Source of the DNA: a virus
Direction: 5' to 3' (one strand)
Virus record (IMG/VR): IMGVR_UViG_3300031933_000117
Location: 1-64,000 of that record
Length of the DNA stretch: 64,000 nt
Numbering within the stretch: position 1 is the stretch's first letter; each line of letters opens with the position of its first letter. Below the pieces are notes generated by a model. It was not told where the DNA came from and made no database searches. It saw nothing but the letters and a program-made list of their open reading frames with translations. Below are positions 5,300 to 54,036 of the stretch, piece after piece. A program made the position numbers and the translations under genes.

Positions 5300-7818
5300 T
5301 CAACCGATAGAAGGAGCAGTTAGAGCAACCGAAGTTGTTTCTGCTGCTGCCAGATCTAAAGGAAAGTTCGCTTAACCCGTAAATTTACCATCCTTACGGA
5401 GCAGACTATATCATCAACCTATTTCATTAGGTTGTCGGACGCTAATGGTGTATTACATAGGGCGCTCCCTAAACCACCTAGTCGTTGAACCTTCCTCAAA
5501 AGTTCGTTTGAGGCTTGGCTGCTGATTGCCCTTATATTTTGGAGGGGTTCCAGCAATTCATCCGATTTACATCTATCAATTACTTGATAGAGCCACCACT
5601 TTCTAATGGGCGTTACGTTCATGCCGTTTTTGTTATCGTAAGAACTCTTTATTTCTTACTTCTTACTGTCGCCAGTAAGACCAGACTATCTCTTCATCCG
5701 TTCTGGATGCTGGGCATTCGTGGGTAGATTATTGTTGGAACTCACTACCTAGTCGTTAGACCTGCCGAAGAACCTATGTCCTCTTCGGATTGGTACGGGA
5801 TTGTCTACTTGAGAGTTTCCCCGTTTAACCCAGTTTCGTCAAGGAATATTCCTATTCCAGGGTGACTACATTTCAGAAATCACTTCCATACCAAGTCCAG
5901 CACGATTTAAAATGTCAGCCCAAGTAGGAATTACTCGGTTTTGACTATCAATAAGAGACTGGTTAAAATTAAAACCGTTGCACTAGATCCATAAGTTTAC
6001 CATACTTGTGGAGTGGACTATATCTTCATCCCAGTAGGATGTCGGACGCTTATTCCTGTTATTAAGGGAACTATATCCCTCAGGTAGTCTCTGAACCTTT
6101 CTTGAGTGTACTCAAGACTTGGATGCTGATTGCCCTTTTATTTTGGAGGGTTTCCAGCAATTCATCCGATGTTTGCCGTTAAATTGCTTTAACGGAACCC
6201 CAATTGAGGTTAAATGCCATCGTGGATACACCAAGAGCGGTGAACCAGATGCCCACAACGGGCCAGGCAGCCAGGAAGAAGTGTAACGAACGGGAGTTAT
6301 TAAAGGAAGCATATTGGAAAATAAGGCGACCAAAATACCCGTGAGCAGCAACGATGTTGTATGTCTCTTCTTCTTGTCCGAACTTATATCCATAATTCTG
6401 TGACTCGGTTTCAGTGGTCTCACGAACTAGTGAAGAAGTCACTAGCGAACCGTGCATAGCACTGAAGAGTGAACCACCGAAGACACCAGCAACTCCAAGC
6501 ATATGGAATGGGTGCATAAGGATATTATGTTCTGCCTGGAAGACTAGCATGTAATTAAACGTACCAGAAATACCAAGGGGCATAGCGTCAGAGAAAGAAC
6601 CTTGACCGAAAGGATACACAAGGAATACAGCACTCGCAGCAGCAACAGGTGCAGAGTAAGCAACCATAATCCAGGGACGCATACCTAAACGATAGGAGAG
6701 TTCCCATTCACGACCCATGTAGCAATAGATGCCGATAAGGAAGTGAAATACAACAAGTTGAAATGGACCTCCATTATACAACCATTCGTCAAGACTCGCT
6801 GCTTCCCAGATAGGATAGAAGTGAAGTCCGATAGCATTTGAACTTGGAACAACAGCACCAGAGATGATGTTGTTTCCGTACATAAGAGAACCAGCAACTG
6901 GTTCACGAATCCCGTCGCTACATCTAACAAACAACCATATCTTTTGACTTAGGTTGCTTCTGTTGACGAATTTGATTTGCTCGTTTTGCGTTTTCTACTC
7001 TTCCACCGTTTTCTACCCACTCTTTCCAAGTTTGTAGGTAAGAAATAGATTCGGTTATTCTCTCTGCTCTTCTTACTCCCATATAAGGAAGTATTTTTTG
7101 TAGAATGAATAATACCTTTTCTTTTTCTCCGATGTGAAGTGTATAAACTTGTTTTCCTGTTACGGTCTTTCTTGATGGTGAAAAATAAGATTTATCTAAA
7201 AGTTTACTCAACCTTTGGATAATATCTTCATCCACCATAGAAATTTTGATAAAAGGTGCTGGTGGAGTATTAGAAACTTCATAACGGTCTTTGGAACGAT
7301 TATCTATTCCAAAGTATCCTTCACCTTCTAATAATCCAGCAATCCAAGCAATATCAGTCTCGGTTATGTTTAACATTTTGTTTTTGCTTCTACTGTACTA
7401 TTTATACAGCATTAGCAAGAAAAAGTCAACAGTAGATGTGTGGACTATATCTTCACCCTTCATTTTTATTGAAGGGGCTGGGCACTTAAACCTGTTATTA
7501 AGGGAACTATATCCCTCAGGTAGTCTCTGAACCTTTCTTGAGTGTACTCAAGACTTGGCTGCTGATTGCCTTTCGGTTTCCAGCAATTCACCCAGTTTCG
7601 TCAATACTCTTACGAGTAAGGGACACCGATTAGTTAATGTCTACGGGAGGCGCTCCAACAAACGCAATAATGAAGCAAGTAGTTGCAGCGAGCAACGTTG
7701 GAATCATAAGAACGCCGAACCAACCAACATAAAGGCGGTTGTTCGTGGAAGTAACCCAGGAACAGAAATCGTTCCAGAGATTATTAGTATTAGAACGTGT
7801 AGCAATTGTAGCAGTCAT
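5300..7818 (-). CDS. psbA: Photosystem II D1 protein, five exons (four group I introns)
   Basis: Join of 7818-7637, 6917-6207, 5980-5879, 5624-5606 and 5368-5300. The exons sum to 1,083 nt, which is 360 aa plus stop, exactly the usual D1 length. Exon 1 encodes [18 protein letters not shown]…APPVD; exon 2 DGIREP…TMAFN; exon 3 NGFNFNQ…LGMEV; exon 4 only HERNAH; exon 5 [16 protein letters not shown]…PSIG. Junctions were placed where the D1 reading continues with T before each 5' site and G at each intron end. The protein would replace host D1 during infection and keep photosystem II running. Host-type promoter at 7985-8013; terminator at 5263-5289. Splicing is predicted, not shown. Confidence 0.9.
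5369..5605 (-). ncRNA. Group I intron 4 in psbA (237 nt, no ORF)
   Basis: Lies between exon 4 (…HERNAH) and exon 5 (NFPLDL…). Group I core blocks are recognisable on the minus strand: GAATTGCTGG (P element), GGGCAATCAGCAGCC (Q), GGTTCAACGACTAGGTGG (R) and GATGATATAGTC (S). The 5' exon ends in T and the intron ends in G. Close to intron 2 in sequence. Confidence 0.85.
5625..5878 (-). ncRNA. Group I intron 3 in psbA (254 nt, no ORF)
   Basis: Interrupts the codon for Met in LGMEV/M/HERNA. Core-like blocks GGTCTAACGACTAGG and GATGAAGAGATAGTC are visible on the minus strand. It is the most diverged of the four introns, but it shares 15 nt (5828-5842) with intron 1 (7590-7604). T-before and G-last splice-site rules hold. 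Confidence 0.8.
5981..6206 (-). ncRNA. Group I intron 2 in psbA (226 nt, no ORF)
   Basis: Sits inside the Leu codon of FNLNGF. P, Q, R and S blocks are clear on the minus strand (GAATTGCTGGAAA, GGGCAATCAGCATCC, GGTTCAGAGACTACC, GAAGATATAGTCC). Positions 6055-6122 are identical to 7491-7558 in intron 1. Confidence 0.88.
6055..6122. repeat. 68-bp exact repeat shared by psbA introns 1 and 2 (copy A)
   Basis: Identical to 7491-7558. It covers the R-element side of the group I core. Confidence 0.9.
6924..7376 (-). CDS. LAGLIDADG homing endonuclease inside psbA intron 1
   Basis: 150 aa with a single LAGLIDADG-type helix ([15 protein letters not shown], about residues 10-24; catalytic acidic residue in LEGEG), so it probably acts as a dimer. 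The remainder has the expected beta-rich core ([22 protein letters not shown]). The ORF is entirely intronic. Just upstream, TATAAATA (7399-7406) sits in the loop of an 8-bp inverted repeat (7389-7396/7429-7436). It would cut intron-less psbA and drive spread of intron 1; the site is predicted to span the VDI/DGI junction. Confidence 0.9.
7389..7436 (-). promoter_or_regulatory. Overlapping early and late promoters in an inverted repeat
   Basis: TCTACTGT (7389-7396) pairs with ACAGTAGA (7429-7436). The loop holds a late promoter, minus-strand TATAAATA (7399-7406). The same TATAAA also stands 17 nt after TTGACT (7424-7429), so a host-type promoter can be read from the same bases. The 3' arm adjoins the ribosome-binding region of the LAGLIDADG ORF. 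Confidence 0.6.
7491..7558. repeat. 68-bp exact repeat shared by psbA introns 1 and 2 (copy B)
   Basis: Identical to 6055-6122. Confidence 0.9.
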
Positions 7819-29236: not shown

Positions 29237-29265
29237 ATTATATGTGATTATTTAGGGTTTGTCAA
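29237..29265 (-). promoter_or_regulatory. Consensus host-type promoter facing a terminator
   Basis: TTGACA (29265-29260), 17-nt spacer, TATAAT (29242-29237). The -35 box overlaps the stop of the upstream gene. The start point would be at about 29230, inside the terminator hairpin. Confidence 0.8.
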
Positions 29266-29669
29266 GCCTTAGAACCCAGATGTCCCAGATTTCTTGCTGT
29301 AGCATTATTTCTGGATTGCCCCCTTACCCCACCAGACCTTCCAGAACGACGGTCTCCAAATCTTCCACCAGTAGAAGTATCTTCTCCTTCACCATCACTT
29401 GAAGGAATATTGGCAAGACTACCACCTCTTGCTCTAGTATCTTTTGGTTTTGATGCTTTTCCAGAAACCCAAGTGTTTTCTCTTTCATCTTTTTTATCCC
29501 TATCACCGGTTAGGGCACCGATTTTTGCTTGAGTTCCTGCCTGTAATTCTCCCGCCTGCATTTCAACTTCCAAAGCACCTTTCATATCTCCCTTTTGCCT
29601 AAGCATTTTTGCTTTTGCTCTAAGTTCTTGAATTGTTGCTTCTAAAATAAACTCTTGAAACGTCTTCAT
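29262..29669 (-). CDS. Predicted internal head protein with T4-like capsid-targeting N-terminus
   Basis: 135 aa. The start MKTFQEFILEA closely resembles the T4 internal-protein capsid-targeting sequence (MKTYQEFIAEA); ILE|A fits the gp21 prohead-protease pattern (L/I-x-E). The remainder is Gly/Arg/Ser-rich and basic (GRFGDRRSGRSGGVRGQSRN), suiting a DNA-associated packaged protein. A late promoter (29686-29693) lies 17 nt upstream. Similar starts occur in the nucleotidyltransferase gene at 45870. Packaging is inference. Confidence 0.7.
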   Translation of the reverse strand: MKTFQEFILEATIQELRAKAKMLRQKGDMKGALEVEMQAGELQAGTQAKIGALTGDRDKKDERENTWVSGKASKPKDTRARGGSLANIPSSDGEGEDTSTGGRFGDRRSGRSGGVRGQSRNNATARNLGHLGSKA

Positions 29670-29680
29670 ATGAATAGTTT

Positions 29681-29866
29681 CTAATTATTTATAGAATCCA
29701 TATCCATATAAATGATATCTATTTCTTTTACATTCTCAGGAATATGAATCCACTCATAAAACTCTGCTTCTAATGCTTTTGCATTCTTGTGACGATCTGC
29801 TTCGTGAAGTAAATCAATTTTGCTTACAGCCCAGTCTTTAATGTCACCCAGATACTCATTTTCCAA
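29681..29866 (-). CDS. Hypothetical 61-aa acidic protein
   Basis: LGDIKDWAVSKIDLLHEADR followed by acidic helices. SD-like TGAGGAA precedes the ATG and a consensus host-type promoter is at 29889-29917. No domain recognised. Its end overlaps the late promoter of the next gene. Confidence 0.65.
   Translation of the reverse strand: MENEYLGDIKDWAVSKIDLLHEADRHKNAKALEAEFYEWIHIPENVKEIDIIYMDMDSINN
29686..29693 (-). promoter_or_regulatory. T4-type late promoter
   Basis: Minus-strand TATAAATA, 17 nt before the ATG at 29669. Confidence 0.75.
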
Positions 29867-31312: not shown

Positions 31313-32956
31313 TTATTTCTTTTTGGTTGGGGGGAGTTTGCGTTCATCTACTTCAGGATTATATTCTCTTTTATATTCTCCATGACTAGGTGGATTGCTA
31401 CCATCTCCTCCTTTTGTTCCTTTTTTAACAGGTACAATAGGTATAGGAACTGACTGTACTGTCGTCATTACTTCTACAATATCACCAATCATCTCAGCGT
31501 TCATCTCAAGCATCACATAATTTGCTTCTTCTAAGGTGCCTGCGTGACCCTGTGAGAGGAGATACTCAAGCACGAGGTCATAGGCATCATACTCATAAGA
31601 TTGCCTTAGAGTAGTTCTGGGAGGTGGGGGAGCTGTCTCTTTTTTAGGAGGTAGTGGAGCTGCTTTAGGATCCGCTGTTGGGGTTGGTGGTGCTGTTGAA
31701 GTCGCAGCACTTAATTTAGCAGCAAGTGGAGCAGTAGGAACTCCAAAACCACTAGGACGAGATGTTACTGCTGGTTTTGGAGCAGGTTTTGATGCCTCTA
31801 CACCTGCCTTAACCGCTGCTTCTTCAGCACCCTTTGTATTGCCTGCTGTCTTTGCTGCTTCTCTTGCTTCTCTTGCTGCTTTTAATTCTGCACTAGTTGC
31901 CGCTCTTCTTTCAAACTTAGTTCCACCTGCGGTAGTTCCAACAAACTCACGCTTTCCAGTTACAGTAGACATTCTTGTTTCAAGTGGTTTTGCTGGTGCT
32001 GGTCTAGAAGGTGTTGGTGCTGGTGTAGAAGCAGGAGGTTTTGGTGCTGGTGTAGAAGAAGTTGGTGCTGGTGTAGAAGCAGGAGGTTTTGGTGCCTCAG
32101 GTGCTGGTGTAGAAGGAGTTGGTTTTGGTGAAGGTTTTGGTGCCTTGCCTGGAACTGTGATTTCCTTTTCACCTTGAGATTTTAATCTTTTGTTAATTGT
32201 TCCCGGTAATTGATAACTATTAGTCTCCGGATCCCAAAGTTTTGTTACTCCACCTACTGTCAATTTGGACCAGTCACCACCTTTAGGTTTTTGTGATGGA
32301 AATGCAGGATCTTCTGTTATAATATAGTTTTTACCATAACTATATTCTTGCGTCAAATGTGCCGGTGGGAGATTTCTTTTAGGAGGACTTGGTTTTGATA
32401 TATCTGGTGCTGCTATGTAAGGCTTTATAGAATCAGCAGCTTGTTGGGTTTGTCGGGCAGCTTGTCCTGGACTTGGGATACTGTGTCCCGCTCTTCTTAA
32501 TGCCTGAATCGCAGATCCAGCATATTCTCTAACCTTTCCACCACTTAAATATTGATCCAATCCAGCAGCAATAGCAGCGGGAACTGCCAATTTTCCTGCT
32601 TTTGTGGCAAGTGCCTTAGCAGGACCTTTTGCTCCCTGAAAAAATGCAGTTGCAGATTTCTTAGCAGCTTCTTTTCCTGGTCCTTTTATACCTTTAACAA
32701 TTGCCGACCCAGCTTTTCCGGCAAGGGCACCTACACCTTTCAATAATGCTCCCCATCCTTCTGTTATATGATATTCATATAACTCTTCATAAGTATATTC
32801 ACTTAGATCATATCCATCTTCAATTAAGAAATCAATAACTTCAAGAAACTCTTTAATTTCTTTTTCTTCATTTAATTTATTTCTAATATCGTCATCATAT
32901 ACTGCATAATATGCTTCCATTAAAGAATTATATTGATTTTGCGCTGTCTTATTCAT
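31313..32956 (-). CDS. Large Pro/Ala/Lys-rich head-protein-like protein (family member 1)
   Basis: 547 aa. Starts MNKTAQNQYNSLMEAYYAVY, where LME|A could be a gp21-type cleavage site; then a short acidic domain (FLIEDGYDLSEYTYEELYEY), an Ala/Lys/Gly-rich segment (GVGALAGKAGSAIVKGIKG), a long Pro-rich linker of PAPTP/PKPPAS repeats and a C-terminal module (AYDLVLEYLLSQGHAGTLEE). Related modules occur in the 33019 and 34568 genes. Low-complexity, basic: a prohead core or packaged protein is likely. Late promoter at 32982-32989. Confidence 0.7.
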   Translation of the reverse strand: MNKTAQNQYNSLMEAYYAVYDDDIRNKLNEEKEIKEFLEVIDFLIEDGYDLSEYTYEELYEYHITEGWGALLKGVGALAGKAGSAIVKGIKGPGKEAAKKSATAFFQGAKGPAKALATKAGKLAVPAAIAAGLDQYLSGGKVREYAGSAIQALRRAGHSIPSPGQAARQTQQAADSIKPYIAAPDISKPSPPKRNLPPAHLTQEYSYGKNYIITEDPAFPSQKPKGGDWSKLTVGGVTKLWDPETNSYQLPGTINKRLKSQGEKEITVPGKAPKPSPKPTPSTPAPEAPKPPASTPAPTSSTPAPKPPASTPAPTPSRPAPAKPLETRMSTVTGKREFVGTTAGGTKFERRAATSAELKAAREAREAAKTAGNTKGAEEAAVKAGVEASKPAPKPAVTSRPSGFGVPTAPLAAKLSAATSTAPPTPTADPKAAPLPPKKETAPPPPRTTLRQSYEYDAYDLVLEYLLSQGHAGTLEEANYVMLEMNAEMIGDIVEVMTTVQSVPIPIVPVKKGTKGGDGSNPPSHGEYKREYNPEVDERKLPPTKKK

Positions 32957-32981
32957 TCTTTGGATATTTTGATCTTAATTT

Positions 32982-32989
32982 TATTTATA
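32982..32989 (-). promoter_or_regulatory. T4-type late promoter
   Basis: Minus-strand TATAAATA, 26 nt before the ATG at 32956. Confidence 0.75.
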
Positions 32990-33018
32990 ATGATTGCCTT
33001 TTTATTTGAGGTTTTAGT

Positions 33019-34503
33019 CTATCTACCACCCCTTTTTCCGCCCATACCTCCTCCTGCTGGTGGTTTAGGTGGAGCTGGTTTTGCTCCAACAATCTTAGGT
33101 CCAACGATCTTAGGACCTACAAGATTTTTAGAACCCTTAACTCCCAAATCTTGCTGACGTTTAATATCACTTTGAGAAGCTTGCTTCAGTTTTTGTGCCG
33201 CAAGTTTCGCATCATTTGCCTTATAAGCATTAGGATTAAATGTTCTACCAATTCTTTCAAGTGCGCTACTTGATCCTTCACCTGGTTTTGCTGCTCTTTT
33301 ATATATTGCCTTTCCGCCTTTATAAGCAAGAAAACCAGTTTCCGCTTTACCAGTTTCTGGATTTTTAACTACTGATGTTTTGGCAAGTTGAACTGTCTTC
33401 TTTTGAGAACCAGACCCAGTTGTCATAGTTCCTTTCTTGGTATCAAACGATGTTGGACCACCAATACCTTTTAGTGCTCCGCCTGCCTGTCTCTTACGAT
33501 TTGCCTCTCTATCTGCAGCTCTCTGTACCGCATTCTTTCCGGCAGCAACATCAAATGCCTTAGATGCTGCCATAGATCCACCAGTAGCACCAGCAACTGT
33601 TCCAACTGGACCAGCTACAGATCCTGCAGCACCACCAAGAGCACCACCAGCGGCAACCGCCGCACCTTTTGCCAAAGATCTAGCCCATCCAGATCCTTTT
33701 GATTTTTCGTTAGCAACCTCAAGAGCAGAGGCCGCCGGACCTGCAAGTTTACCAGCAACTCTAAGTGCTTTTCCAGCACCAGAAGGTAATTTTGGATTAG
33801 GAACATTTCTATTTGTTCTAATAACATCCGGATTTGATGGAGATCCCTTTGGAGCGGTTAGTGTTGATTTGGAGGTTGTTGCTAATGGTCCACCTTTTAC
33901 GGGTGTTGCGGATGGAGTTTTAGCGGGAGGTAATGCTGGTTTTGCGGATGTACCACCGGCAGGAGCAAGAGTTCTATTTGGCAATCTACTGGATGGTCCT
34001 TCTTTAGGAATACCTAATTGTGATTGAGGTTTCTTGGGAAACTGTTTCCAAGGATCTCTGGCGGCACCAGTTGCAGGTTTTCTTGCAGTAGACGCCAATT
34101 TACCACCGGTTTGTCCCGCAGCAGGTAATGCTGGTTTTGCGGATGTACCACCGGCAGGAGGAAGAGTTCTATTTGGTAATCTACTGGATGGTCCTTCTTT
34201 AGGAATACCTAATTGTGGTTGGGGTTTCTTAGGAAATTGGTTCCAAGGATTTCTTGCGGTAACTTTTTTTAATACTGGAGTTACAACTTTCGCAACAGCG
34301 CCAAGTCTTTCGTCTAATTGAATATAAGACTCATACATCTCTTCCCAAGTACAATCACTTAGGTCATAACCTTCTTCAATAAGGTCATTTACCCAGTTCT
34401 CAACTTCTTCCCATACCTGTTCTTCGGTAAGTTCTTGAGGGGCATATACTGCCTGATATGCCTCCATCAAACCATATACATCAGTACCAGTAAGTCTAGA
34501 CAT
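33019..34503 (-). CDS. Large head-protein-like protein (family member 2) with internal duplication
   Basis: 494 aa. MSRLTGTDVYGLMEAYQAVY (LME|A site candidate), acidic module LIEEGYDLSDCTWEEMYESY, then two tandem copies of a unit containing NQFPKKPQPQLGIPKEGPSS and NRTLPPAGGTSAKPALP, then a glycine-zipper-like stretch (GALGGAAGSVAGPVGTVAGA) that could insert into or contact membranes, and a basic Gly-rich tail. N-terminal DNA is about 90% identical to that of the 34568 gene. Probably a virion core component; function unknown. Confidence 0.7.
   Translation of the reverse strand: MSRLTGTDVYGLMEAYQAVYAPQELTEEQVWEEVENWVNDLIEEGYDLSDCTWEEMYESYIQLDERLGAVAKVVTPVLKKVTARNPWNQFPKKPQPQLGIPKEGPSSRLPNRTLPPAGGTSAKPALPAAGQTGGKLASTARKPATGAARDPWKQFPKKPQSQLGIPKEGPSSRLPNRTLAPAGGTSAKPALPPAKTPSATPVKGGPLATTSKSTLTAPKGSPSNPDVIRTNRNVPNPKLPSGAGKALRVAGKLAGPAASALEVANEKSKGSGWARSLAKGAAVAAGGALGGAAGSVAGPVGTVAGATGGSMAASKAFDVAAGKNAVQRAADREANRKRQAGGALKGIGGPTSFDTKKGTMTTGSGSQKKTVQLAKTSVVKNPETGKAETGFLAYKGGKAIYKRAAKPGEGSSSALERIGRTFNPNAYKANDAKLAAQKLKQASQSDIKRQQDLGVKGSKNLVGPKIVGPKIVGAKPAPPKPPAGGGMGGKRGGR
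33929..34052. repeat. Internal tandem repeat unit, copy A
   Basis: Matches 34124-34247 at a 195-bp offset with few differences; encodes the PKKPQ…GGTSAKPALP unit. Confidence 0.85.
34124..34247. repeat. Internal tandem repeat unit, copy B
   Basis: Partner of 33929-34052. Confidence 0.85.
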
Positions 34504-34529
34504 TTTTTATTTTAAGTTCTTTATAGTTT

Positions 34530-34537
34530 TATTTATA
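34530..34537 (-). promoter_or_regulatory. T4-type late promoter
   Basis: Minus-strand TATAAATA directly after a terminator T-run; 27 nt before the ATG at 34503. Confidence 0.75.
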
Positions 34538-34562
34538 AAAAAAAAGAGTCCCGAAGGACTCT
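34538..34562 (-). terminator. Terminator of head-protein-like gene 3
   Basis: AGAGTCC/GGACTCT hairpin (34545-34551/34556-34562, tetraloop TTCG) with a T9 tract running into TATAAATA. Confidence 0.85.
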
Positions 34563-34567
34563 GGTAA

Positions 34568-36142
34568 TTATCCACCAATAGATTTCTTTCTTGGTTTTGG
34601 TCTTAAGGATCCACGTTGGAGATAAGGTCTTCCCCTCTGCATAAGCAACCTTTCATCATCTACAGGATGTCCCTCTAAAATAGTAGATATCCATTTTTCA
34701 CTCATATTTTCAACAATAGTTGTCGCTGCTTCTTCATTATCAGCATATCCTTCATCAAGAACATAAGAAAATAGAGCATCATATTCTTCCTTTCTCAATA
34801 ATCTACCAGCAAGTCTTGCTGCACCACTTATACCAGAAGCAACTCCACTAGCAAAAGGAGCAGCAGCTTTTGCTGCTTTTCTAAGGGTTTTACCAGTTTC
34901 GCCAGCAAGACGCTCTGCATCTCGTGTTGCTTTATTATGGCGTTCTATGCCTGCATCAATCGCAGCGAATAATCCTTTTTTGGTTTGGTTTGGAGTTTCC
35001 TCAGTTTCTGGTTGATTTTTTACTGCTGCCTTTGTTGCTCTCTTTCTTGTTTTGGCAGCATCCCTTTCCTCCTGCTTTTTCTTTACTTCCTCATAGCTAG
35101 GACCTCCGGCACGTCTTCTTTTTGCTGACCTTGCCTCATTTAAGGTATAATCTTCAGCAATCTCATTAACCCAATCAACAAACTCTTCCACTCCAAGTTC
35201 TTCAATTAAAATATCAATTCCATATTCATTAAGTCCCATTTCGTAGAAATATTCAGTTGCGATCTCTACTTCTTCGGTAAGTTCTTGAGGAGAATCATAT
35301 CCTTCAACTTTATAAGACTTGTTGTTCCAAGTAAAAGTAGAACCCATCCCACTTTTAATTTTTGCTGTTTTATATGCCTTATCAAAAGACTGAGATTTAG
35401 ACAAACCTTGATCTGGATTTTTTGGACCCTGTTGTGGTTTATAATCTCCTCTCTTTAATGCGGCAGTAAGTGTTCCGGAAGCAGTAGGTCTTGGTGCAGA
35501 CACAGCAGCAGCAACACCAGCAGGAGTTATTCCTCTCAATCCAGCAAGAACACCTGCAACTTGCCCTACTCGATTGGCACCAGGTAACTTAGTTGTTGGT
35601 TTTGTAGTAGATGTTGGAGTTGGTTTTGTCGTTGTTGGTTTTGGTGCTGGTCCTAATGCAGGTTTTTCCCAAGCAGGTTTTGGTGCTCTTGAAGGAAGAT
35701 TTGTTGGGTTTGTTGTTCCCATTAGACCACCACCAGTTGTTCTGTTTAGTCTTTGAGTATCTCTAAATTGTTGAGAACGATTTGTTGAAGTTGCTGGAGA
35801 TGGTACTTTAGTGCTTTTAAATTGAAGTTCTGGTCTTGCTGCAGCGCCTGTTGGACCTCTTTGTGCCGCTTTTGCTGCCTTTGCTGCGTCTTTAGCAGCA
35901 ATACCTGCGTTCACTTGTGCAACAGAAGGTCCACCAGTTCTTCTATTCGCTGGTCTACCTTGTTCTTCAATATAAGACTCATACATTTCTTCCCAAGTAT
36001 AATCACTTAGGTCGTAACCTTCTTCAATAAGATAATTTACCAAGTTCTCAACTTCTTCCCATACCCGTTCTTCGGTGAGTTCTTGAGGAGCATATACTGC
36101 CTGATATGCTTCTTGAAGATTACGAATATCTTGTGCGTTCAT
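34568..36142 (-). CDS. Large head-protein-like protein (family member 3)
   Basis: 524 aa. MNAQDIRNLQEAYQAVYAPQ (LQE|A site candidate), acidic module LIEEGYDLSDYTWEEMYESY, Ala/Lys-rich KDAAKAAKAAQRG, a Pro/Thr linker (TKPTPTSTTKPTTKLP), a second acidic module (LNEYGIDILIEELGVEEFVD), more basic low-complexity sequence and a C-terminal module (YDALFSYVLDEGYADNEEAA) like that of family member 1. Modular, repeat-built, late-expressed; likely an internal virion protein. Not assignable to a T4 gene. Confidence 0.7.
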   Translation of the reverse strand: MNAQDIRNLQEAYQAVYAPQELTEERVWEEVENLVNYLIEEGYDLSDYTWEEMYESYIEEQGRPANRRTGGPSVAQVNAGIAAKDAAKAAKAAQRGPTGAAARPELQFKSTKVPSPATSTNRSQQFRDTQRLNRTTGGGLMGTTNPTNLPSRAPKPAWEKPALGPAPKPTTTKPTPTSTTKPTTKLPGANRVGQVAGVLAGLRGITPAGVAAAVSAPRPTASGTLTAALKRGDYKPQQGPKNPDQGLSKSQSFDKAYKTAKIKSGMGSTFTWNNKSYKVEGYDSPQELTEEVEIATEYFYEMGLNEYGIDILIEELGVEEFVDWVNEIAEDYTLNEARSAKRRRAGGPSYEEVKKKQEERDAAKTRKRATKAAVKNQPETEETPNQTKKGLFAAIDAGIERHNKATRDAERLAGETGKTLRKAAKAAAPFASGVASGISGAARLAGRLLRKEEYDALFSYVLDEGYADNEEAATTIVENMSEKWISTILEGHPVDDERLLMQRGRPYLQRGSLRPKPRKKSIGG

Positions 36143-44658: not shown

Positions 44659-45870
44659 TTACTGATACGCTTTTCTATGCTTATTTATGAAGTTTTTAAT
44701 CTCTTCTATTTTTTGTTCTCTTAAACTTTTATTTCTATTTCTTGGAGCATGATACTCCGAAACATCTCTAATCCAAGACTTAAACATCATTTCAGATTCT
44801 GTTACACAGATTAGATAATTTGTTCCTCTACGAATAATTTTTCCAACCAGACCGGTATTTAGATTTTCAACCAATTGCCCGATTTGGAATATTTTTTCAT
44901 TTACATAATTTTCACGAAGAGACTTGAAATCTAACTTTGGAGCAATATCCCAGATATCCCAACTTTCTTTGATTCTCATCGAACCACGAAGAATATCAAA
45001 TAGTTCTTTTGCTTCTGATCTCTTTACATCAGGAGGAAGACCGGATCTAAATGTCTTAAAATCATTTTCCGCAGCGGCAAGTCTCATTCTTGATGCCGAC
45101 ATTCCTTCTACACCTTTCGCATCAGGATCTCTGTCCCCAGAAGAAATAATCTCAATATTATCAAATTGATATAGTTCCCCGTTATAATTATTGGATAATT
45201 TCTCAAACTCCTTTACTCTATCGGCACCACCCACAATTCTTACACCAGCATATCCATCATTATGTGCCATCCTTAACACATCAAAGATTGTTTTGGTATT
45301 AGGATCATTTACGATGTTTCCAGCGTGAGTTGGATAAAATCGCTGCATATAATCAATCTTTGTATCAGGATCTAATGGATTTTTCTTTTTATCCTGACTG
45401 CGTGATGGGAAAATTAGATATTGACCGTCTTCATCCCCTGCAGCAGCATTTGCGGCAACATCCATAAGTTGCTGATGCCCTATTGTAGGAGGATTAAATC
45501 TTCCAAAAGCAACGGTTAAAGTTCCCTTTGTTTTTTCTACCGGAGGTGGTCCAACTTGCTCTGGTGCTACTGCTTGCTGTTGTAGTGCTGGTTCTTGTTG
45601 AGGTACTGGTTGTGCCGCTGGTTGTGGTTTGTTATGGTCGTTATAACTTGGAGAAGGAATACTTTTTTCGTGTTCTGTTTGATTAGGATCTTTTGCTCCT
45701 ATTCTCTGTCTCTTGTTATAAAATACTAATTCATCTCCTTTCGTTTTCGCAACAAACTCCCCGGTTCTTGGATCTACCCATCCTCCGTGCCCGTCAGTTC
45801 CCAGATTAAGTTTTTTAGCGTGTTCTTTCGCTGAGATTGCTTCGTATATAAACTGACGAAAAGATTTCAT
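44659..45870 (-). CDS. Nucleotidyltransferase-like protein with capsid-targeting-like N-terminus
   Basis: 403 aa. MKSFRQFIYEA resembles the T4 capsid-targeting sequence, with IYE|A as the cleavage candidate. Residues about 125-290 are a cytidylyltransferase/NMN-adenylyltransferase fold: LTVAFGRFNPPTIGHQQLMD (HxGH-type site TIGH), VGGADRVKEFEKL and GMSASRMRLAA (ISSTxxR equivalent). A Pro/Gln-rich linker precedes it; a C-terminal KOW-like stretch (LVGKIIRRGTNYLICVTES) follows. Possibly an enzyme packaged in the head; substrate unknown. Confidence 0.75.
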   Translation of the reverse strand: MKSFRQFIYEAISAKEHAKKLNLGTDGHGGWVDPRTGEFVAKTKGDELVFYNKRQRIGAKDPNQTEHEKSIPSPSYNDHNKPQPAAQPVPQQEPALQQQAVAPEQVGPPPVEKTKGTLTVAFGRFNPPTIGHQQLMDVAANAAAGDEDGQYLIFPSRSQDKKKNPLDPDTKIDYMQRFYPTHAGNIVNDPNTKTIFDVLRMAHNDGYAGVRIVGGADRVKEFEKLSNNYNGELYQFDNIEIISSGDRDPDAKGVEGMSASRMRLAAAENDFKTFRSGLPPDVKRSEAKELFDILRGSMRIKESWDIWDIAPKLDFKSLRENYVNEKIFQIGQLVENLNTGLVGKIIRRGTNYLICVTESEMMFKSWIRDVSEYHAPRNRNKSLREQKIEEIKNFINKHRKAYQ

Positions 45871-46103
45871 TTTTTACTGGTAATTTTTTTCTTAATTATA
45901 TTGTTTATGAGAATCTTATTGGATAGAATATACTGAAGAATACTCTTTCTCATTTTAATATATTTATTCTTTATGATTTCTTTTTTTTCTTTTTTGATTT
46001 TTTCATCAAATGAGAAGTAAAAATATTTCAGAAAATCACCAAATGTTAATTTCTTTTCGTTTTTTATAAACTCAGCAATATAATCATTTACAAGTTGTTT
46101 CAT
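45867..46103 (-). CDS. Basic hypothetical 78-aa protein
   Basis: Very Lys/Ile-rich helical protein (FDEKIKKEKKEIIKNKYIKM). Overlaps the nucleotidyltransferase start by 4 nt. No domain recognised. Confidence 0.55.
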   Translation of the reverse strand: MKQLVNDYIAEFIKNEKKLTFGDFLKYFYFSFDEKIKKEKKEIIKNKYIKMRKSILQYILSNKILINNIIKKKITSKK

Positions 46104-46148
46104 AGAAACAGCACATTATACATTATTTATTCTTACAAAAAATACAAT

Positions 46149-47945: not shown

Positions 47946-48491
47946 TCAAAGATTGCTTTTATGATGCGGAACGTCAAATACAAAAGTAATTCTAACGTTG
48001 TCGCCAATATTAACTGCCTTATGAGGTAGTTTATTATTAAACCAGAAGAGTGTTCCGGGTTCGACAATTATGGTTTCGTCCCCAACAGTATATTCGTATT
48101 TGCCCTGAATGGAAAGATGATATCTGTCTTTTGTAAGATAATAAGTTCCTTCGTCAATATGAGAACCCACAATTTCACCAACTGGAAGCGCCAGAAACGC
48201 ACAACGTCGAAGTTTCTTAAAATACTTACTTAAGTAATTAAGAATCTCTGTATGTTTTTCATATGCCGGGGTTTTAATACATATTTCAGTATTTCCAACA
48301 TATTGACCTTCAGTCTCAACTCCACCCACAATAAGTTGTAGAACATCCACAGTAACTGTATATTTTGTGGGGTCTAATTGTTCCACATCTTTAATATTTT
48401 TTTGAGAACCCCAATCTTCTGGATGTTCCTTAAGTTGTTCTAATATTTTAGAGACATTTACATTAGTTTTTATAATGCGAATATTTTTCAT
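47946..48491 (-). CDS. 2OG-Fe(II) oxygenase, aspartyl/asparaginyl beta-hydroxylase-like
   Basis: 181 aa. Double-stranded beta-helix with VGSHIDEGTYYL (iron-binding His/Asp), YHLSIQGKYEYTV and FWFNNKLPHKAVN (second His) and a 2-oxoglutarate-binding Arg in VRITFVF. Such enzymes are common in cyanophages; the target residue or metabolite is unknown. Overlaps the start of the uvsX 3' part by 4 nt. Confidence 0.85.
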   Translation of the reverse strand: MKNIRIIKTNVNVSKILEQLKEHPEDWGSQKNIKDVEQLDPTKYTVTVDVLQLIVGGVETEGQYVGNTEICIKTPAYEKHTEILNYLSKYFKKLRRCAFLALPVGEIVGSHIDEGTYYLTKDRYHLSIQGKYEYTVGDETIIVEPGTLFWFNNKLPHKAVNIGDNVRITFVFDVPHHKSNL

Positions 48492-48961
48492 GCTCCATAA
48501 CTGAAATTACCCTTGGCGATTACATCAAGTTTTTCCATTACTTCTGGCGGAAAATATTTTTCAATATTTTTCAGGATGTCTTTGGCATAAAGTTTTTTAC
48601 CATCAATTTCATATCGTCCGGCAACATTCTTCCACATTCCACCCAATTCACCAAGTTCAAGAAGACCATAATAACGATCAAGACCTCGTTCATCATAGAA
48701 CAACCGAATTTGAACCTCTTGATTTTCTTTACTTAAACGAGACTTTTGAGTTTTAGCACGAATGATATTTCCAATTATTTCTGTTCCATCTTTTTCTTTT
48801 GATTTGGAAAGATAGATGATTGTAGAGGCAGCATATTGTAATCCACTATTATGAGTTACTACACCATTTTCTAAAATATAATTTTCATATTTTTCCACGG
48901 AGATATCATAAACATCTCCAACGCCAACACTTGTGATGGATTTTATTTTTTTAGTTTTCAT
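48488..48961 (-). CDS. uvsX: Split intein C-half fused to UvsX C-terminal part
   Basis: 157 aa. Residues 1-38 are an intein C-terminal fragment (VYDISVEKYENYILENGVVTHN ends in His-Asn, block G), then Ser+1 and the UvsX C-extein (SGLQYAASTIIYLSKSK, LDRYYGLLELGELGGMWKN). With the N-half (49685-50605) protein trans-splicing would give a 338-residue UvsX. Its ATG overlaps the stop of the HNH gene (ATGA). Confidence 0.9.
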   Translation of the reverse strand: MKTKKIKSITSVGVGDVYDISVEKYENYILENGVVTHNSGLQYAASTIIYLSKSKEKDGTEIIGNIIRAKTQKSRLSKENQEVQIRLFYDERGLDRYYGLLELGELGGMWKNVAGRYEIDGKKLYAKDILKNIEKYFPPEVMEKLDVIAKGNFSYGA

Positions 48962-49620
48962 AATCTTTCTATCCTTATAATATTGTAGTTTTTTAATAAA
49001 TGCTGAAATTGAGATTTAACTAACTTACACCCAAGATGTCCGGATTTCCCCAAATATATCCCCAAATACTTATACTGACTAAAAATAATAAATGTACCAT
49101 CATCGAAATAAACTTTTATGGGATTACTTTTCTTTATTGATAGTATTTTTTTAGTTTCTTCTGTGTGTTTTTTTCCGTAAAATGAATTATTATTTAATAA
49201 GTTATATTCCTTATTTTTTATACTAATTAATTTTCTAGTTTCTTCAGTATGAGTTTTTCCATAAAATGAATTATTTTTTCCCATACTATGAAGTCTATTA
49301 TTTTCTATTATAGATTGATATATTTTTGAGTTTATTTTAATACAACTTCTACCAGAGTTTTTTCCCATAAATCTAACTAAAGCGCAATACATTTTTTTCA
49401 CATATTGAGACTCTACAGATTTAGAAAGTAACAGATGCGCTATAAAATGTTCTCTGGGGGTTAATAAGACTTTATTAGATGGGTTATTACTACCACCCAT
49501 ACATTTTGGAACTATATGGTGAGAGTCATATATTCCACCATCTCCTTTACTCCTATTCATTTGTTTTCTTGTATTTACAAGATTCATATAAGTTTTAGTG
49601 TATTTGTTACAATTAAACAC
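48958..49620 (-). CDS. HNH homing endonuclease between the split intein halves
   Basis: 220 aa, apparently from a GTG. HNH core DSHHIVPKCMGGSNNPSNKV followed by LLTPREHFIAHLLL (about 32-65), then NUMOD3-like repeats (NNSFYGKTHTEETRKLISIK and NNSFYGKKHTEETKKILSIK). It takes the place the endonuclease domain has in a contiguous intein but is a separate ORF. Leader: late promoter in a 10-bp inverted repeat (49626-49664). Confidence 0.88.
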   Translation of the reverse strand: MFNCNKYTKTYMNLVNTRKQMNRSKGDGGIYDSHHIVPKCMGGSNNPSNKVLLTPREHFIAHLLLSKSVESQYVKKMYCALVRFMGKNSGRSCIKINSKIYQSIIENNRLHSMGKNNSFYGKTHTEETRKLISIKNKEYNLLNNNSFYGKKHTEETKKILSIKKSNPIKVYFDDGTFIIFSQYKYLGIYLGKSGHLGCKLVKSQFQHLLKNYNIIRIERL

Positions 49621-49625
49621 AACAT

Positions 49626-49664
49626 AAAATACGAACCTAATACTATTTATAATATTCGTATTTT
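49626..49664 (-). promoter_or_regulatory. Late promoter inside a 10-bp inverted repeat
   Basis: AAAATACGAA (49626-49635) pairs with TTCGTATTTT (49655-49664). TATAAATA (minus, 49644-49651) is in the loop; the 3' arm ends 6 nt before the HNH start. Confidence 0.8.
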
Positions 49665-49684
49665 ACACCGATACCGATTATAAG

Positions 49685-50605
49685 TCAAATACAACAAACT
49701 TCATTATCAACAACTAAATCTTTTGCCTCAATCCACATACCATCAATAAAAAATTTATGTTCTGGCGTACAGGTAACTTTATATCCATCATCAAATTCTA
49801 TCTGTAAAAGTTCTTTGTCCTTAAAATTGTGAGTTTCTAAAACTTTCATAAACTCACCTTCTTTTGTATATACAAAATCATTTTCAGTTATATCTTCGAT
49901 ATTTTTATACCCACCACGAGTAAAAATTTTAGTTCCGGGAGATAAGCACCCCCCGCTCATTTGTTTTCCACCATAAAGAGACATACTATCATAGGTGTGA
50001 TTTGTCACCAGCATAGGAATCTTTGCTTGACCCAGTTTGAGAGTAAGCATACGGAAAGCACCCTTAATCAATTGTGCCTTCGTCATATCACGAGTATCCT
50101 TCTCCGCAAGAGCATCATTAATCTCTTTATTTGTAGAAAGCATTCCCAAGGAATCCAACACAAAGATACAAGGTTTTCTTTCTTCCTCCTTTTTCTTAAG
50201 GTAAATATCAACTGCCTTAAGTGTCTTGGTGCGAAACTCTTCAACCGTGACTACATTAACGACCACCAAACGATTTATATCAACTCCACGAGACTCTAAT
50301 AGTGATTTAGTAATTGCGGATTCAGTATCAAAGTATAGACAATACCCATCAGGATGAGTATCAAGAAAGTTCTTAACAACAGCGAGACTGAAGAAAGTTT
50401 TTCCCGTAGAAGTTTCACCCGCGATAGCAGTAATCTTATTGCCAGATACACCACCAAATATACTACCGGATACAAGAGCATTAAAAATGTATGAACCCGT
50501 ATCCACATAAGTTTCAGTTTCATCAATCTCTGATGCGAGTTGCGTATATTCTCCCCCAATCTCCTTTACAATATCTTTAAGAAAACTTAATCCAGAATCA
50601 GTCAT
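49685..50605 (-). CDS. uvsX: UvsX N-terminal part fused to split intein N-half
   Basis: 306 aa from ATG 50605 (AGGAGG 6 nt before). Residues 1-219 are UvsX/RecA-like: Walker A AGETSTGKTFF, Walker B CIFVLDSLGML, LVTNHTYDS and the end KQMSGG. At Cys (49948) the intein starts: CLSPGTKIFTRGGYKNIEDI (block A) and CTPEHKFFIDGMWIEAKDL (block B), 87 residues in all. UvsX is the phage strand-exchange recombinase. The insertion site, MSGG/SGLQY, is the conserved loop of the ATPase core. Confidence 0.93.
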   Translation of the reverse strand: MTDSGLSFLKDIVKEIGGEYTQLASEIDETETYVDTGSYIFNALVSGSIFGGVSGNKITAIAGETSTGKTFFSLAVVKNFLDTHPDGYCLYFDTESAITKSLLESRGVDINRLVVVNVVTVEEFRTKTLKAVDIYLKKKEEERKPCIFVLDSLGMLSTNKEINDALAEKDTRDMTKAQLIKGAFRMLTLKLGQAKIPMLVTNHTYDSMSLYGGKQMSGGCLSPGTKIFTRGGYKNIEDITENDFVYTKEGEFMKVLETHNFKDKELLQIEFDDGYKVTCTPEHKFFIDGMWIEAKDLVVDNEVCCI

Positions 50606-50606
50606 T

Positions 50607-50744
50607 TCATTCCTCCTTTTGTTTTTGTTTGTTGTCATAATTCATCTTATATCGCCAAAGTTTTTGATACAGGGCAACATCTCCACCTAATCTCATAGCA
50701 CTAACAATCGTATCAAGTTCTTTTTCGTTAATTGGCAAGTTCAT
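50607..50744 (-). CDS. 45-aa protein between gp43 and uvsX
   Basis: ATG overlaps the gp43 stop (TAATG). MNLPINEKELDTIVSAMRLG and a basic Lys/Gln tail. Ends 2 nt before uvsX and carries its ribosome-binding site. Function unknown. Confidence 0.65.
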   Translation of the reverse strand: MNLPINEKELDTIVSAMRLGGDVALYQKLWRYKMNYDNKQKQKEE

Positions 50745-51889
50745 TAGATAAAAAATGAATCAAGGTTTGCTGTATGTTCTGTTTTCCATCCAATCGAATC
50801 TAAAATAGACTTAAGTGGGTCCAAGAAGCTCTTCTCAAATTGTAGTTCATAATCAATATATTTGTCAAGTCCCAATTCTTTAGGAAAATCAGAAATAAAG
50901 GAAATGACATTCTCTCGTATGATATTCGGTTTTTTTAAGAAAATATACTTCACTTTCTCTCCATTATTAATAAGTGAATATTTATGAGTAAGTTTTTTCT
51001 CCTTTATATAATGATTAAACAAAAGAGAACCACGAATATGAATTGGAGTTCCTTTTGAGTATATTTCATTACGAGAACTATACTTCCTTATATCTGACGC
51101 TGTTCTGGGAAAGGCAATTTGCTCCGGAGAAAAAGTTCTAAACTCTTGCCGACATTCATTAATAAACTTGATTACCTCATCTTCGGTTCCACTCATCATA
51201 ATCTTTAACCCATCCTTAATCATTTTACGACAAGGTGCTGGAGTTGAGGATTTGACCGCCTCAATTCCCATCATCTTGAGTTTTGGTTCGGCATAACGAA
51301 CACCTTCACTATCCCAGACATTTAGAATATAACGCTTCTTCGCAGTCCAGATTCCTCGGTCGGCAATATTCTCCCGCTTCATAATCATCTTCTGGTCGTA
51401 GGCATTCATATACTCCGCTAGTTCCTCATAGCAACCCTGAATATATTTTTCAATTTCGGTCTTACAGATTTTATCAAGAAACGAAACAACAGATTCGGTA
51501 GTTTTTTTCTTTTCCTTATATACGGCATTTACCAGAGGTCCCATATTCAGGTAAATGGAGTCGGTGTCGGACGCAATCACATAATCATAATCCTCAGTTT
51601 TAAGTATTTTATTGAAATATCTATTCATCTTATTTTCAATCCAACGAATCGCAACCTGCCCCGAAAGAGTAATCGCTTCGGCATTCTCAAGTTTATAATA
51701 CCTGAAGTATTGATTTCCACAAGCACCGTAGGCAGAATTGAGAGATATTTTTTTAGACATCTGAATATTATTACATCTTGAAATCTCCTTTATAGTTTTT
51801 TCCCTCAAAGATTTTAATTGAGAATCGGACATTTCAGATAAGTTCACATTTCCATCCCTTTGCTTTACCTTTTGTAATAACTTTACCAT
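50744..51889 (-). CDS. 43: DNA polymerase gp43, C-terminal part (split gene)
   Basis: Up to 381 aa; an internal ATG at about 51832 (MSDSQLKSL) is an alternative start free of overlap. Contains polymerase motif B (KISLNSAYGACGNQYFRYY), motif C (IASDTDSIYL) and the thumb. The N-terminal part with exonuclease and motif A is a separate ORF (52567-54036); a GIY-YIG gene sits between. The two chains would have to associate to make an active family B polymerase, as reported for some other T4-like phages with split gene 43. Confidence 0.9.
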   Translation of the reverse strand: MVKLLQKVKQRDGNVNLSEMSDSQLKSLREKTIKEISRCNNIQMSKKISLNSAYGACGNQYFRYYKLENAEAITLSGQVAIRWIENKMNRYFNKILKTEDYDYVIASDTDSIYLNMGPLVNAVYKEKKKTTESVVSFLDKICKTEIEKYIQGCYEELAEYMNAYDQKMIMKRENIADRGIWTAKKRYILNVWDSEGVRYAEPKLKMMGIEAVKSSTPAPCRKMIKDGLKIMMSGTEDEVIKFINECRQEFRTFSPEQIAFPRTASDIRKYSSRNEIYSKGTPIHIRGSLLFNHYIKEKKLTHKYSLINNGEKVKYIFLKKPNIIRENVISFISDFPKELGLDKYIDYELQFEKSFLDPLKSILDSIGWKTEHTANLDSFFI

Positions 51890-52538
51890 TTTTACTACTA
51901 CTAACCCAAAGAGTAGAATGAGGTAAATTATTTTCTTTACACCAGTCTTCTAATCTATTGGTAATAATTTCTTCACCAATTGGAGACGTTATTTTAAATG
52001 TTGAAGATAAACAATCTCTCATATGATCTTTATTTTCTTTCCAGTGGTTAGTAGACCAATCTCTCATAAATTCAGAATGTTCTGGTCTTTTTTTACCAGT
52101 ATTAACTTCAAGTGCTTTTTTTAAGTTTTCTTTTGCTATACTAACATATTTTGGATTTCCAGTTTTAAGTTTTTTTTGAGATTCTGAAACTTTATTTCTA
52201 ACTTCTAATGATTTTTTCATAGGATTATTATCTCCCTTACATAAACCATTAGCATTTACATAGTTCCAACCACCTTTTCCACCAACATTCATATTATAGC
52301 ATTTATCTTTTTTATAATGCTCCTCAACTATTTTTTCTTCTTTTAAATACATTTCATTTTCCTCATTACAAAATTCAACTATTTCTCTATAAAAATTTTC
52401 TTTACCATGTTTTTCTATTGCCTTTTTTAAAGCAACACCAGAACCTAAATATTCATCATTTATGTTTTTAGTGGAGTGTGCTCCATAATAGTACTTACCA
52501 TTTTTCATATTTGTTGTTTTGTATATGAAATAATACAT
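51834..52538 (-). CDS. GIY-YIG homing endonuclease splitting gp43
   Basis: 234 aa. YYFIYKTTNMKNGKYYYGAH (GIY…YYG core), YLGSGVALKKAIEKHG and a Glu in EEKIVEEHY complete the catalytic set; the C-terminus has DNA-binding GKKRPEHSEFMRDWS and a KGWKCEL end. It overlaps the gp43 C-part in another frame by 56 nt and begins 28 nt after the N-part stop. No group I core fits in the gap. Its late promoter overlaps the N-part stop codon. Confidence 0.87.
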   Translation of the reverse strand: MYYFIYKTTNMKNGKYYYGAHSTKNINDEYLGSGVALKKAIEKHGKENFYREIVEFCNEENEMYLKEEKIVEEHYKKDKCYNMNVGGKGGWNYVNANGLCKGDNNPMKKSLEVRNKVSESQKKLKTGNPKYVSIAKENLKKALEVNTGKKRPEHSEFMRDWSTNHWKENKDHMRDCLSSTFKITSPIGEEIITNRLEDWCKENNLPHSTLWVSSSKNGKVITKGKAKGWKCELI

Positions 52539-52563
52539 CTAAAATACCTGTTTCCTACAGCAC

Positions 52564-52571
52564 TATTTATA
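52564..52571 (-). promoter_or_regulatory. T4-type late promoter of the gp43 GIY-YIG gene
   Basis: Minus-strand TATAAATA within the palindrome ACTATT-ATA-AATAGT; its TAA is also the stop codon of the gp43 N-part. Flanked by direct repeats AGGAAAC. Confidence 0.7.
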
Positions 52572-54036
52572 ATAGTTTCCTTTTTTTCATTTCCGATTCA
52601 ATTTGCTCCAATTCTTTTTTTTCCTTAATCATCAGGTCCTTATACACAACGCGGTCGTTATACATTTTCTCCATGAGTTCGGGAAGGAATCCCCTCACAT
52701 CTTTACGATACATCGCACCATTAGGACATACCGCATAGTCCTTATACTTCTCAAAAGTTAGTTCTTGGTTGAGAATCTTATCTACAGTTACGGTGGGGTG
52801 CCTTTTATCAACAAGAGTTTCTGGACTCACGTTAAATTCCATAATTAAATGCGGATAAAGTGAATTCAAATCGAAATTAACGACCCAATCATAAACTCCG
52901 GGTACGGGTTCTTTTACATAGGCACCAGCATACTTTTCACTTTTTTCTGATTTAGTTTTAGGAGGAATTACAATATTCCTATCCTTAAGATAATTGTAAA
53001 TGATAGTATCCCACATAGAAACTTGAGAGAATACATCATTATAATTAACCTTGGCATCATATGCCATCGTAAGTGCCAGTTCAATTAGTTTCATCTTGTC
53101 TTCCAATCGGTCAACAAGTTCTACGTCCTTTATGTTATACTCACAAAATTTCTGCCAACCTTTGGTATAAAAATCCTTAAAGGTATCAAACTCGGAGTGG
53201 TCCAGTTTTTTCTGCCCGAGTTCCACTTCGGCAATATAATCCAGACGATATGATTCCTGTGCCTTATAGGTAAACTTTTTATAAAGATCCAAATAATCTA
53301 ATTGTGATATGCCACCAATATTATAATAGATTTGATTTCTTCCCAAAACAAATGTCTCCTTTTCGGATACTATTCCCCACGGAGAAATACGCTTCATTAA
53401 CTTTTCGCCAAGTATTTTTTCGAGACGACGAACCAAATAAGGAATATCGTAAAACATACTATTCCATCCAGTAATAACCTCTGGTGTATTTTCCTCAATC
53501 ATCCACCAGCAAATAAAATCATTTAACAGATCATACTCGGAAGAAAATTGCCGGTAAGTAACATTTTTTTGATTATTTTGATAAGGTCCAAGTCCCCAAG
53601 TTCGGATTTGTTTTGTATTGTAATCCTGTAAAGTAATCAAAAGAACCTCTTCTGCTGCGGATTCTACATCAGGAAATCCATTCTCCGATGCGACCTCAAT
53701 ATCAATAGTGGTTAGTTTAATTTTACCAATATCAAACTTAATTTCAGTTTCTGGATATTTGTCAGAAATGTATTGATAAATGTACCGGTCATTCCCATAG
53801 ATTTTAAAGTTTTCTACATTATCATACTTTTTAAGAAACTCTCTACATTCTTTTACCGAACCCGGTTGAATAGATTCTACATATTCTCCCTGAAGTGTTT
53901 TATATTTGGTTGGTTTTTTAGACGAAACAAAAAGAGTTGGAGAAAACTTTTCACGAGTCATAAAGTGGTTTCCGTCTTTATAACCTCTAACTAAAAAGTA
54001 ATCTCCAATCATAAGTACATTTGTATAAAAATTCAT
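52567..54036 (-). CDS. 43: DNA polymerase gp43, N-terminal part (split gene)
   Basis: 489 aa. 3'-5' exonuclease motifs TTIDIEVASENG (Exo I), GWNSMFYDIPYL (Exo II) and YNIKDVELVDRL (Exo III), then polymerase motif A NFDLNSLYPHLI (about 400). Ends in the fingers helix (LEQIESEMKKRKLL). Motifs B and C are on the other ORF. The start MNFYTNVLMIGDYFLVRGY is that of cyanophage gp43. Confidence 0.93.
   Translation of the reverse strand: MNFYTNVLMIGDYFLVRGYKDGNHFMTREKFSPTLFVSSKKPTKYKTLQGEYVESIQPGSVKECREFLKKYDNVENFKIYGNDRYIYQYISDKYPETEIKFDIGKIKLTTIDIEVASENGFPDVESAAEEVLLITLQDYNTKQIRTWGLGPYQNNQKNVTYRQFSSEYDLLNDFICWWMIEENTPEVITGWNSMFYDIPYLVRRLEKILGEKLMKRISPWGIVSEKETFVLGRNQIYYNIGGISQLDYLDLYKKFTYKAQESYRLDYIAEVELGQKKLDHSEFDTFKDFYTKGWQKFCEYNIKDVELVDRLEDKMKLIELALTMAYDAKVNYNDVFSQVSMWDTIIYNYLKDRNIVIPPKTKSEKSEKYAGAYVKEPVPGVYDWVVNFDLNSLYPHLIMEFNVSPETLVDKRHPTVTVDKILNQELTFEKYKDYAVCPNGAMYRKDVRGFLPELMEKMYNDRVVYKDLMIKEKKELEQIESEMKKRKLL

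Follow-up and report, generated by a model that had tools for sequence, protein, structure and literature searches.

Two genes in a marine viral genome fragment begin with a short peptide that resembles the sequence by which phage T4 sends internal proteins into its head, and one of the two encodes a putative nucleotidyltransferase. The fragment is a 64,000-nt stretch of DNA (IMG/VR record IMGVR_UViG_3300031933_000117, positions 1 to 64,000; hereafter the window). We asked whether this peptide is a genuine capsid targeting sequence, whether the enzyme behind it is carried in the virion, and what such an enzyme could do in a newly infected host.

Genomic context of the nucleotidyltransferase

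The window is part of a T4-like marine cyanophage. The complete 70.7-kb record encodes psbA, UvsX, gp43, gp41, and the clamp loader, as well as a ribonucleotide reductase small subunit. This record is itself a fragment, on which gp21 and gp23 were not found; a gp21-type protease and the gp23 capsid protein were identified in S-CREM2 and in three leader-bearing viral records longer than 40 kb, including the largest (146 kb).

Several other features of the window were observed. UvsX is apparently split by a homing endonuclease gene (window 48488-50638; N-part 49685-50638, endonuclease 48958-49620, C-part 48488-48961), and the DNA polymerase is in two parts (50744-54036) with a homing endonuclease ORF at the junction (51834-52538). 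The psbA gene, encoding D1, adjoins an HNH endonuclease gene (6179-7376). Three adjacent large proteins (31313-36142) matched phrog_3708/phrog_27516, and each is preceded by a TATAAATA late promoter element.

The nucleotidyltransferase gene (Table 1) directly follows a 78-aa ORF and the gp41 region, and the ATGA overlap with the 78-aa ORF suggests that the two genes apparently form one unit. The gene that follows resembles a P-SSM2 gene at the same place, and in cyanophage S-SCSM1 the genes on both sides of the orthologue are labelled virion proteins. The 403-aa product (pI 8.6) is an orthologue of the cyanophage T4-GC190 'cytidyltransferase', orthologues being annotated as T4-GC 190. The only Pfam domain found was PF01467 (CTP_transf_like; residues 121-224, E 3.6e-5, above the Pfam cut-off), and phrog_395 matched the protein with an E value of 1e-99, placing a cytidylyltransferase-like domain at about residues 115-300. 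The AlphaFold model shows a confidently modelled core (pLDDT of ~90), a disordered linker at residues 54-105, and a helix at residues 4-11.

Table 1. Positions in the window of the two leader-bearing genes, their parts, and their late promoter elements
Feature	Position	Strand	Evidence
Leader-bearing nucleotidyltransferase gene, 403 aa, starts MKSFRQFIYEA	44659..45870	(-)	ORF, PF01467, phrog_395
Leader MKSFRQFIYE (residues 1-10) of the capsid targeting type, with a predicted cut after E10	45841..45870	(-)	Orthologue conservation, predicted helix 4-11
Small module DGHGGWYD...GEFVAKT, residues 12-62	45685..45837	(-)	tblastn and profile matches
Nucleotidyltransferase core, residues 115-301, motifs FGRFNPPTIGH and GMSASRMR	44968..45528	(-)	AlphaFold, VIA, conservation
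Small beta-barrel, SH3/KOW/Tudor type, residues 312-374	44749..44937	(-)	Model pLDDT 92.7; structure comparison
78-aa ORF, ATGA overlap with nucleotidyltransferase start	45867..46103	(-)	ORF, sequence
T4-type late promoter element (A)ATAAATA, AATAAATA, ahead of 78-aa ORF and nucleotidyltransferase	46124..46130	(-)	Position statistics
Second leader-bearing gene, 135 aa, starts MKTFQEFILEA, basic, Gly/Arg-rich tail	29262..29669	(-)	ORF
Leader MKTFQEFILE of 135-aa protein	29640..29669	(-)	ORF start, motif scan
Late promoter element TATAAATA	29686..29692	(-)	17 nt upstream of 135-aa leader gene

Two small domains accompany the core. The module at residues 12-62 was also detected, by tblastn and profile searches, in cyanophage serine/threonine kinases and in a Cas9-like virion protein of S-CREM2. 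The C-terminal barrel reached Z scores of up to 7.9 against Tudor and Spt5 KOW domains, values below 8 that define the fold class only; a PDB profile search with the C-terminal domain gave no match. The same SH3/KOW-like barrel stands alone behind a leader in another locus (L072). Residues 313-384 also matched phrog_4808, named 'ribonucleotide reductase alpha subunit'. This identity was rejected because the region takes a small SH3/KOW-like barrel fold in the model, and the name is apparently a mis-annotation.

The leader is not a chance similarity

When all six frames of the window were searched for [FY]xx[FYL][ILVM]xE[AGS], only the two leader genes matched at ORF starts, both where the initial annotation had placed them. 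At the DNA level, the 70.7-kb record contains two copies of the leader pattern and none of its reversed control. Across the whole IMG/VR collection the pattern (MK, then S/T or R, then FxxFIxEA) had at least 120 matches vs 6 for a control with reversed residue order, on which basis chance similarity was rejected.

In the loci of the matches listed, the looser motif F..F[IL].E began at residue 4 behind a Met 139 times and lay elsewhere 24 times. Because 136 of these 139 lie within 25 codons of an upstream stop, the leader-bearing starts are true gene starts. Residues M1, K2, F4, F7, I8, E10, and A11 were invariant in 83 carriers, but the search pattern demanded them, so this invariance is no evidence by itself. 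Position 6, which was free in the search, is Q or E in ~69% of carriers among the matches listed; it is E in T4.

Correspondence with the T4 capsid targeting sequence

The ipII and ipIII genes of T4, checked in its genome sequence, share the start MKTYQEFIAE. Mutagenesis of T4 IPIII has assigned targeting mainly to residues 4 and 7 and processing to residues 8 and 10, with gp21 cutting after L/I-x-E (PMC9026906). Both window leaders, whose likeness to the T4 sequence the initial annotation had pointed out, carry these targeting and cleavage residues, and residues 8 and 10 fit the L/I-x-E rule for a predicted gp21-type site. To this can be added the evidence from 18 nucleotidyltransferase orthologues picked by their core or annotation (IMG/VR loci L003-L015, S-SM1, Syn33, Syn9, S-SM2, P-SSM2, S-CREM2, and the window), the named phages among which had also matched a leader scan. 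M1, K2, F4, F7, and E10 are present in all 18, and position 8 is either I or L. The codons differ among them, and conservation drops to only 41% across the linker (residues 63-115). The leader is kept at the positions identified by T4 mutagenesis (4, 7, 8, and 10) and therefore matches the T4 capsid targeting sequence where function lies. The identification of the first ten residues of the 403-aa protein as a T4-type capsid targeting sequence is strongly supported.

The resemblance to T4 IPII and IPIII (MKTYQEFIAE|A) extends to leader length, the MK start, aromatic residues at positions 4 and 7, an acidic residue or Gln at position 6, I/L at 8, E at 10, and Ala at 11, as well as to basic cargo, late genes, and a T4-like phage. 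The marine leaders differ in having F at position 4, where T4 has Y, and their cargo includes many recognizable enzymes; cleavage after E10 is a prediction in the marine case. The leader is not universal, in that the T4-like relatives P-HM2 and HTVC008M have the enzyme without it. In T4 itself, the 54-aa gp61.1, a protein of unknown function (NC_000866, 19130..18966, minus strand; locus L163), starts MKTFKEFIKED; this targeting-sequence-like start suggests that gp61.1 may be an unrecognized internal head protein.

The promoters of both leader genes are of the T4 late type. Of 20 ATAAATA sites on the minus strand of the window, 14 precede a gene start by 8-45 nt, where 0.74 would be expected (P 3e-16), an enrichment by position only and not by count. 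Judged from promoter sequence alone, late expression of both genes would fit that of T4 internal proteins.

The second gene encodes the type of protein that the initial annotation expected of an internal protein, being basic (pI 10.2 past residue 10) and Gly/Arg-rich, with 20 Gly in 135 aa. Leader-bearing homologues were found in three other loci (L102, L120, and L137), and a search of named phages for relatives gave no match.

Leader-bearing orthologues in virions

Published proteomes place orthologues of the enzyme in virions. T4-GC190 was detected by mass spectrometry (MS) in purified S-SM1 virions (PMC3037559), and the corresponding gene, SSM1_190, starts MKKFSAFLNEA. The S-SCSM1 orthologue, labelled both NMNAT and virion protein, was detected by MS in virions (PMC9602691) and starts MKSFLQFLKEA. 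For S-CREM2, virion MS yielded 3 peptides of ORF154 (PMC10665884), which starts MKNFSSFLTEA. An NMNAT in S-CBWM1 virions is also cited in PMC9602691. The S-PM2 copy of the enzyme has a different N-terminus without the leader, and it was one of the proteins that went undetected in S-PM2 virions (PMC3037559). No N-terminal peptide is reported in the texts of these virion studies (PMC3037559, PMC9602691, and PMC10665884).

Leader genes are also enriched among the virion proteins of S-CREM2. Six annotated CDS have a leader-like start (gp6 SAM hydrolase, gp13, gp14 kinase, gp136, gp154, and gp175), under a motif that was loosened to allow L/F/M at position 8 after relatives had been seen. Five of the six have been identified in the virion, which contains the products of 52 of the 219 CDS (Fisher P 0.003), and the set includes 'regulatory' proteins whose presence in the virion puzzled the authors. 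Of the two leader genes in S-SCSM1, only one carries the label of a virion protein; since the other, SSCSM1_30, does not, the enrichment rests mainly on S-CREM2. The Cas9-like gp12 (OR473000, L141 7704-10313), a separate S-CREM2 virion protein, was left out of the six; RFASFMAEA begins at its residue 18, near the N-terminus, and it also carries the small module found at residues 12-62 of the nucleotidyltransferase.

Taken together, the presence of leader-bearing orthologues in the virions of relatives is strongly supported. The suggestion in the initial annotation that the window enzyme may be packaged is supported by MS on three leader-bearing orthologues, by the leaderless S-PM2 copy having gone undetected in virions, and by the exact match to T4 functional positions, the basic carriers, and the late promoters. 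We consider it probable that the leader is what it appears to be and that the 403-aa protein is packaged in the virion.

Fold and likely substrate of the enzyme

PF01467 and fold comparison together confirmed a nucleotidyltransferase core, which the initial annotation had read from the sequence as of cytidylyl/NMN-adenylyltransferase type. The protein has the Rossmann-like fold and the (H/T)xGH and SxTxxR-type motifs of the HxGH nucleotidyltransferase superfamily. Foldseek returned human NMNAT as the best match of the model, and VIA-align gave Z scores of 13.7 for CoaD, 13.0 for NadD, and 12.5 for NadM, a near tie that puts CoaD no farther from the model than NMNAT. Sequence identity to solved structures was only 12-18%. 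Across 37 homologues, P127, P128, H132, N164, P165, K171, and R263 were invariant, and NCBIfam matches were of the NadD type in 19, the NadR type in 17, and CoaD in 8. Some leader-bearing homologues have SKEH, SKNH, or TAH instead of xxGH; the notion that these diverged forms are dead enzymes was rejected, as H132 and R263 are kept.

NMNATs have a second motif that ends in Arg, whereas CoaD has Lys there; in this enzyme the motif ends in an invariant Arg (SASRMR). Three loci (L035, L113, and L126) encode fusions of the leader-bearing nucleotidyltransferase with an AAA_33/zeta-type P-loop kinase, recalling the two-domain layout of NadR. The protein is thus like NadM, NadD, and NadR in fold, signature motifs, and NCBIfam matches, and unlike them in its low identity to solved structures and in its added leader, N-terminal module, and C-terminal barrel. 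Overall, the enzyme most resembles NMN/nicotinate-nucleotide adenylyltransferases. NMN or NaMN is the likeliest substrate on account of the NCBIfam counts, the invariant residues, the NadR-like kinase fusions, and the fold; we infer this assignment tentatively, at somewhat less than even odds.

The same leader on many unrelated proteins

BLASTP with the first 11 residues removed separated 125 carriers into at least 42 clusters among the IMG/VR matches listed, showing that the leader is portable, with the same leader on unrelated cargo. The idea that it is peculiar to nucleotidyltransferases was rejected, because at least 42 unrelated clusters carry it. Among the matches listed, carriers had a median pI of 9.7, and the 917 remaining ORFs in these loci had one of 6.0 (P 3e-29, in a test whose family members are not independent); the carrier median rose to 10.3 once the nucleotidyltransferases were left out. 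Neither pI nor position relative to late promoters was used in selecting carriers. The leader is a general tag that relatives of this phage put on many unrelated, mostly basic proteins. Some of the clusters consist of small basic proteins.

Pfam domains on the carriers included nucleotidyltransferases, GNAT acetyltransferases, glucosaminidase, adenylate kinase, AAA_33/zeta-type kinases, S-adenosylmethionine (SAM) lyase, DUF5661, DUF6267, and DUF6321. One carrier had a PARP/ART match below the Pfam cut-off, a weak hint of a possible ADP-ribosyltransferase. PADLOC gave three matches, each on single members. Three loci (L030, L071, and L111) contain pairs of different leader-bearing genes with a 4-nt overlap, an arrangement that suggests putative cargo operons; one of these pairs consists of an ADP-ribosyltransferase-like and a GNAT-like protein.

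A proposed model for a packaged enzyme and its alternatives

In the model that we favor, the 403-aa protein would be a capsid cargo enzyme of a T4-like cyanophage. It would be made late from a TATAAATA-type promoter and carried by its leader into the prohead core, where a gp21-type protease would probably cut after E10. The protein would then stay in the head with the DNA and enter the host with it. Once there, the core would most likely adenylylate a small phosphorylated substrate, NMN or nicotinate mononucleotide, so that NAD or its precursor would be produced as infection begins. The benefit may be that NAD is kept up for phage replication or against NAD-depleting defences; phage pathways that rebuild NAD are known (PMC12774641).

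Co-purified contaminants are a concern that the S-SCSM1 and S-CREM2 authors themselves raise (PMC9602691, PMC10665884), and on such an account the leader would not be a targeting sequence and an abundant late protein would merely soil the virion preparations. We regard this as very improbable. The enzyme was found independently in three phages, all with the leader, and its leaderless S-PM2 counterpart was not seen; nor does contamination explain why the leader is kept on at least 42 unrelated clusters or why leader genes are enriched in the S-CREM2 virion. A subtler alternative accepts that the leader targets the prohead and holds that the protein is just a core or DNA-binding component whose activity goes unused after infection. 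The basic character of the carriers, the SH3/KOW-like barrel that forms the sole cargo in L072, and the altered motifs of some homologues speak for it. Against it, H132, N164, P165, K171, and R263 are invariant in 37/37 homologues and other cargo proteins are clearly enzymes (SAM lyase, adenylate kinase, and GNAT), making a purely structural role unlikely.

The substrate is the part of the model where an alternative carries more weight. Phosphopantetheine (as for CoaD), CTP with an alcohol phosphate, or a nucleotide-activated defence signal is possible, if doubtful, as the true substrate. The top structural Z score belongs to CoaD (13.7 vs 12.5-13.0 for NadD/NadM), in a near tie at low identity to solved enzymes, whereas NCBIfam favors NadR and NadD over CoaD and the Arg that closes the second motif is NMNAT-like.

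The initial annotation had likened the enzyme to T4 Alt, a comparison that holds for delivery and not for activity. Like Alt, the cyanophage protein would be an enzyme packaged in the head and injected. They are unrelated enzymes: neither Pfam nor fold comparison, which indicated a nucleotidyltransferase, gave an ADP-ribosyltransferase domain in the 403-aa protein. Enzymes of its class normally adenylylate small phosphorylated molecules, not proteins. The processing sites differ as well, Alt being cut at ITE-6 and at its C-terminus (PMC5694885).

Implications for T4-like marine phages

A T4-type targeting sequence is a known kind of signal, and the presence of the enzyme in virions has already been published. 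By annotation and alignment, leader included, the window gene is the same as T4-GC190 'cytidyltransferase' (S-SM1, S-SM2, Syn33, and P-SSM2) and the S-SCSM1 NMNAT, and the S-SM1 and S-SCSM1 copies were detected in virions; the window enzyme is only 47-62% identical to the closest of these. The texts of the corresponding papers do not describe the leader (PMC3037559, PMC9602691), and injection of the enzyme had been suggested as a possibility (PMC9602691, PMC10665884). The literature searched, which mostly excludes subscription papers, yielded no study connecting this enzyme, or the others that cyanophages package, with a T4-type leader. Cyanophage proteome authors were unsure whether the nucleotidyltransferase, kinases, and SAM hydrolase were packaged or contaminants, and the leader offers a mechanism.

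More broadly, we think it reasonably probable that this portable leader marks a large effector repertoire pre-loaded in the heads of T4-like marine phages. Its members would range from nucleotidyltransferases, kinases, and acetyltransferases to SAM lyases, ADP-ribosyltransferase-like proteins, and even a Cas9-like nuclease. Entering along with the viral genome, these proteins would disarm or reprogram the host before phage gene expression; most are of unknown function, and a ten-residue motif finds them. The motif could therefore serve as a search tool for probably injected proteins of very abundant viruses of the sea, most of which are unannotated. It suggests that anti-restriction (SAM lyase) and NAD-related functions may be delivered at the first moment of infection.
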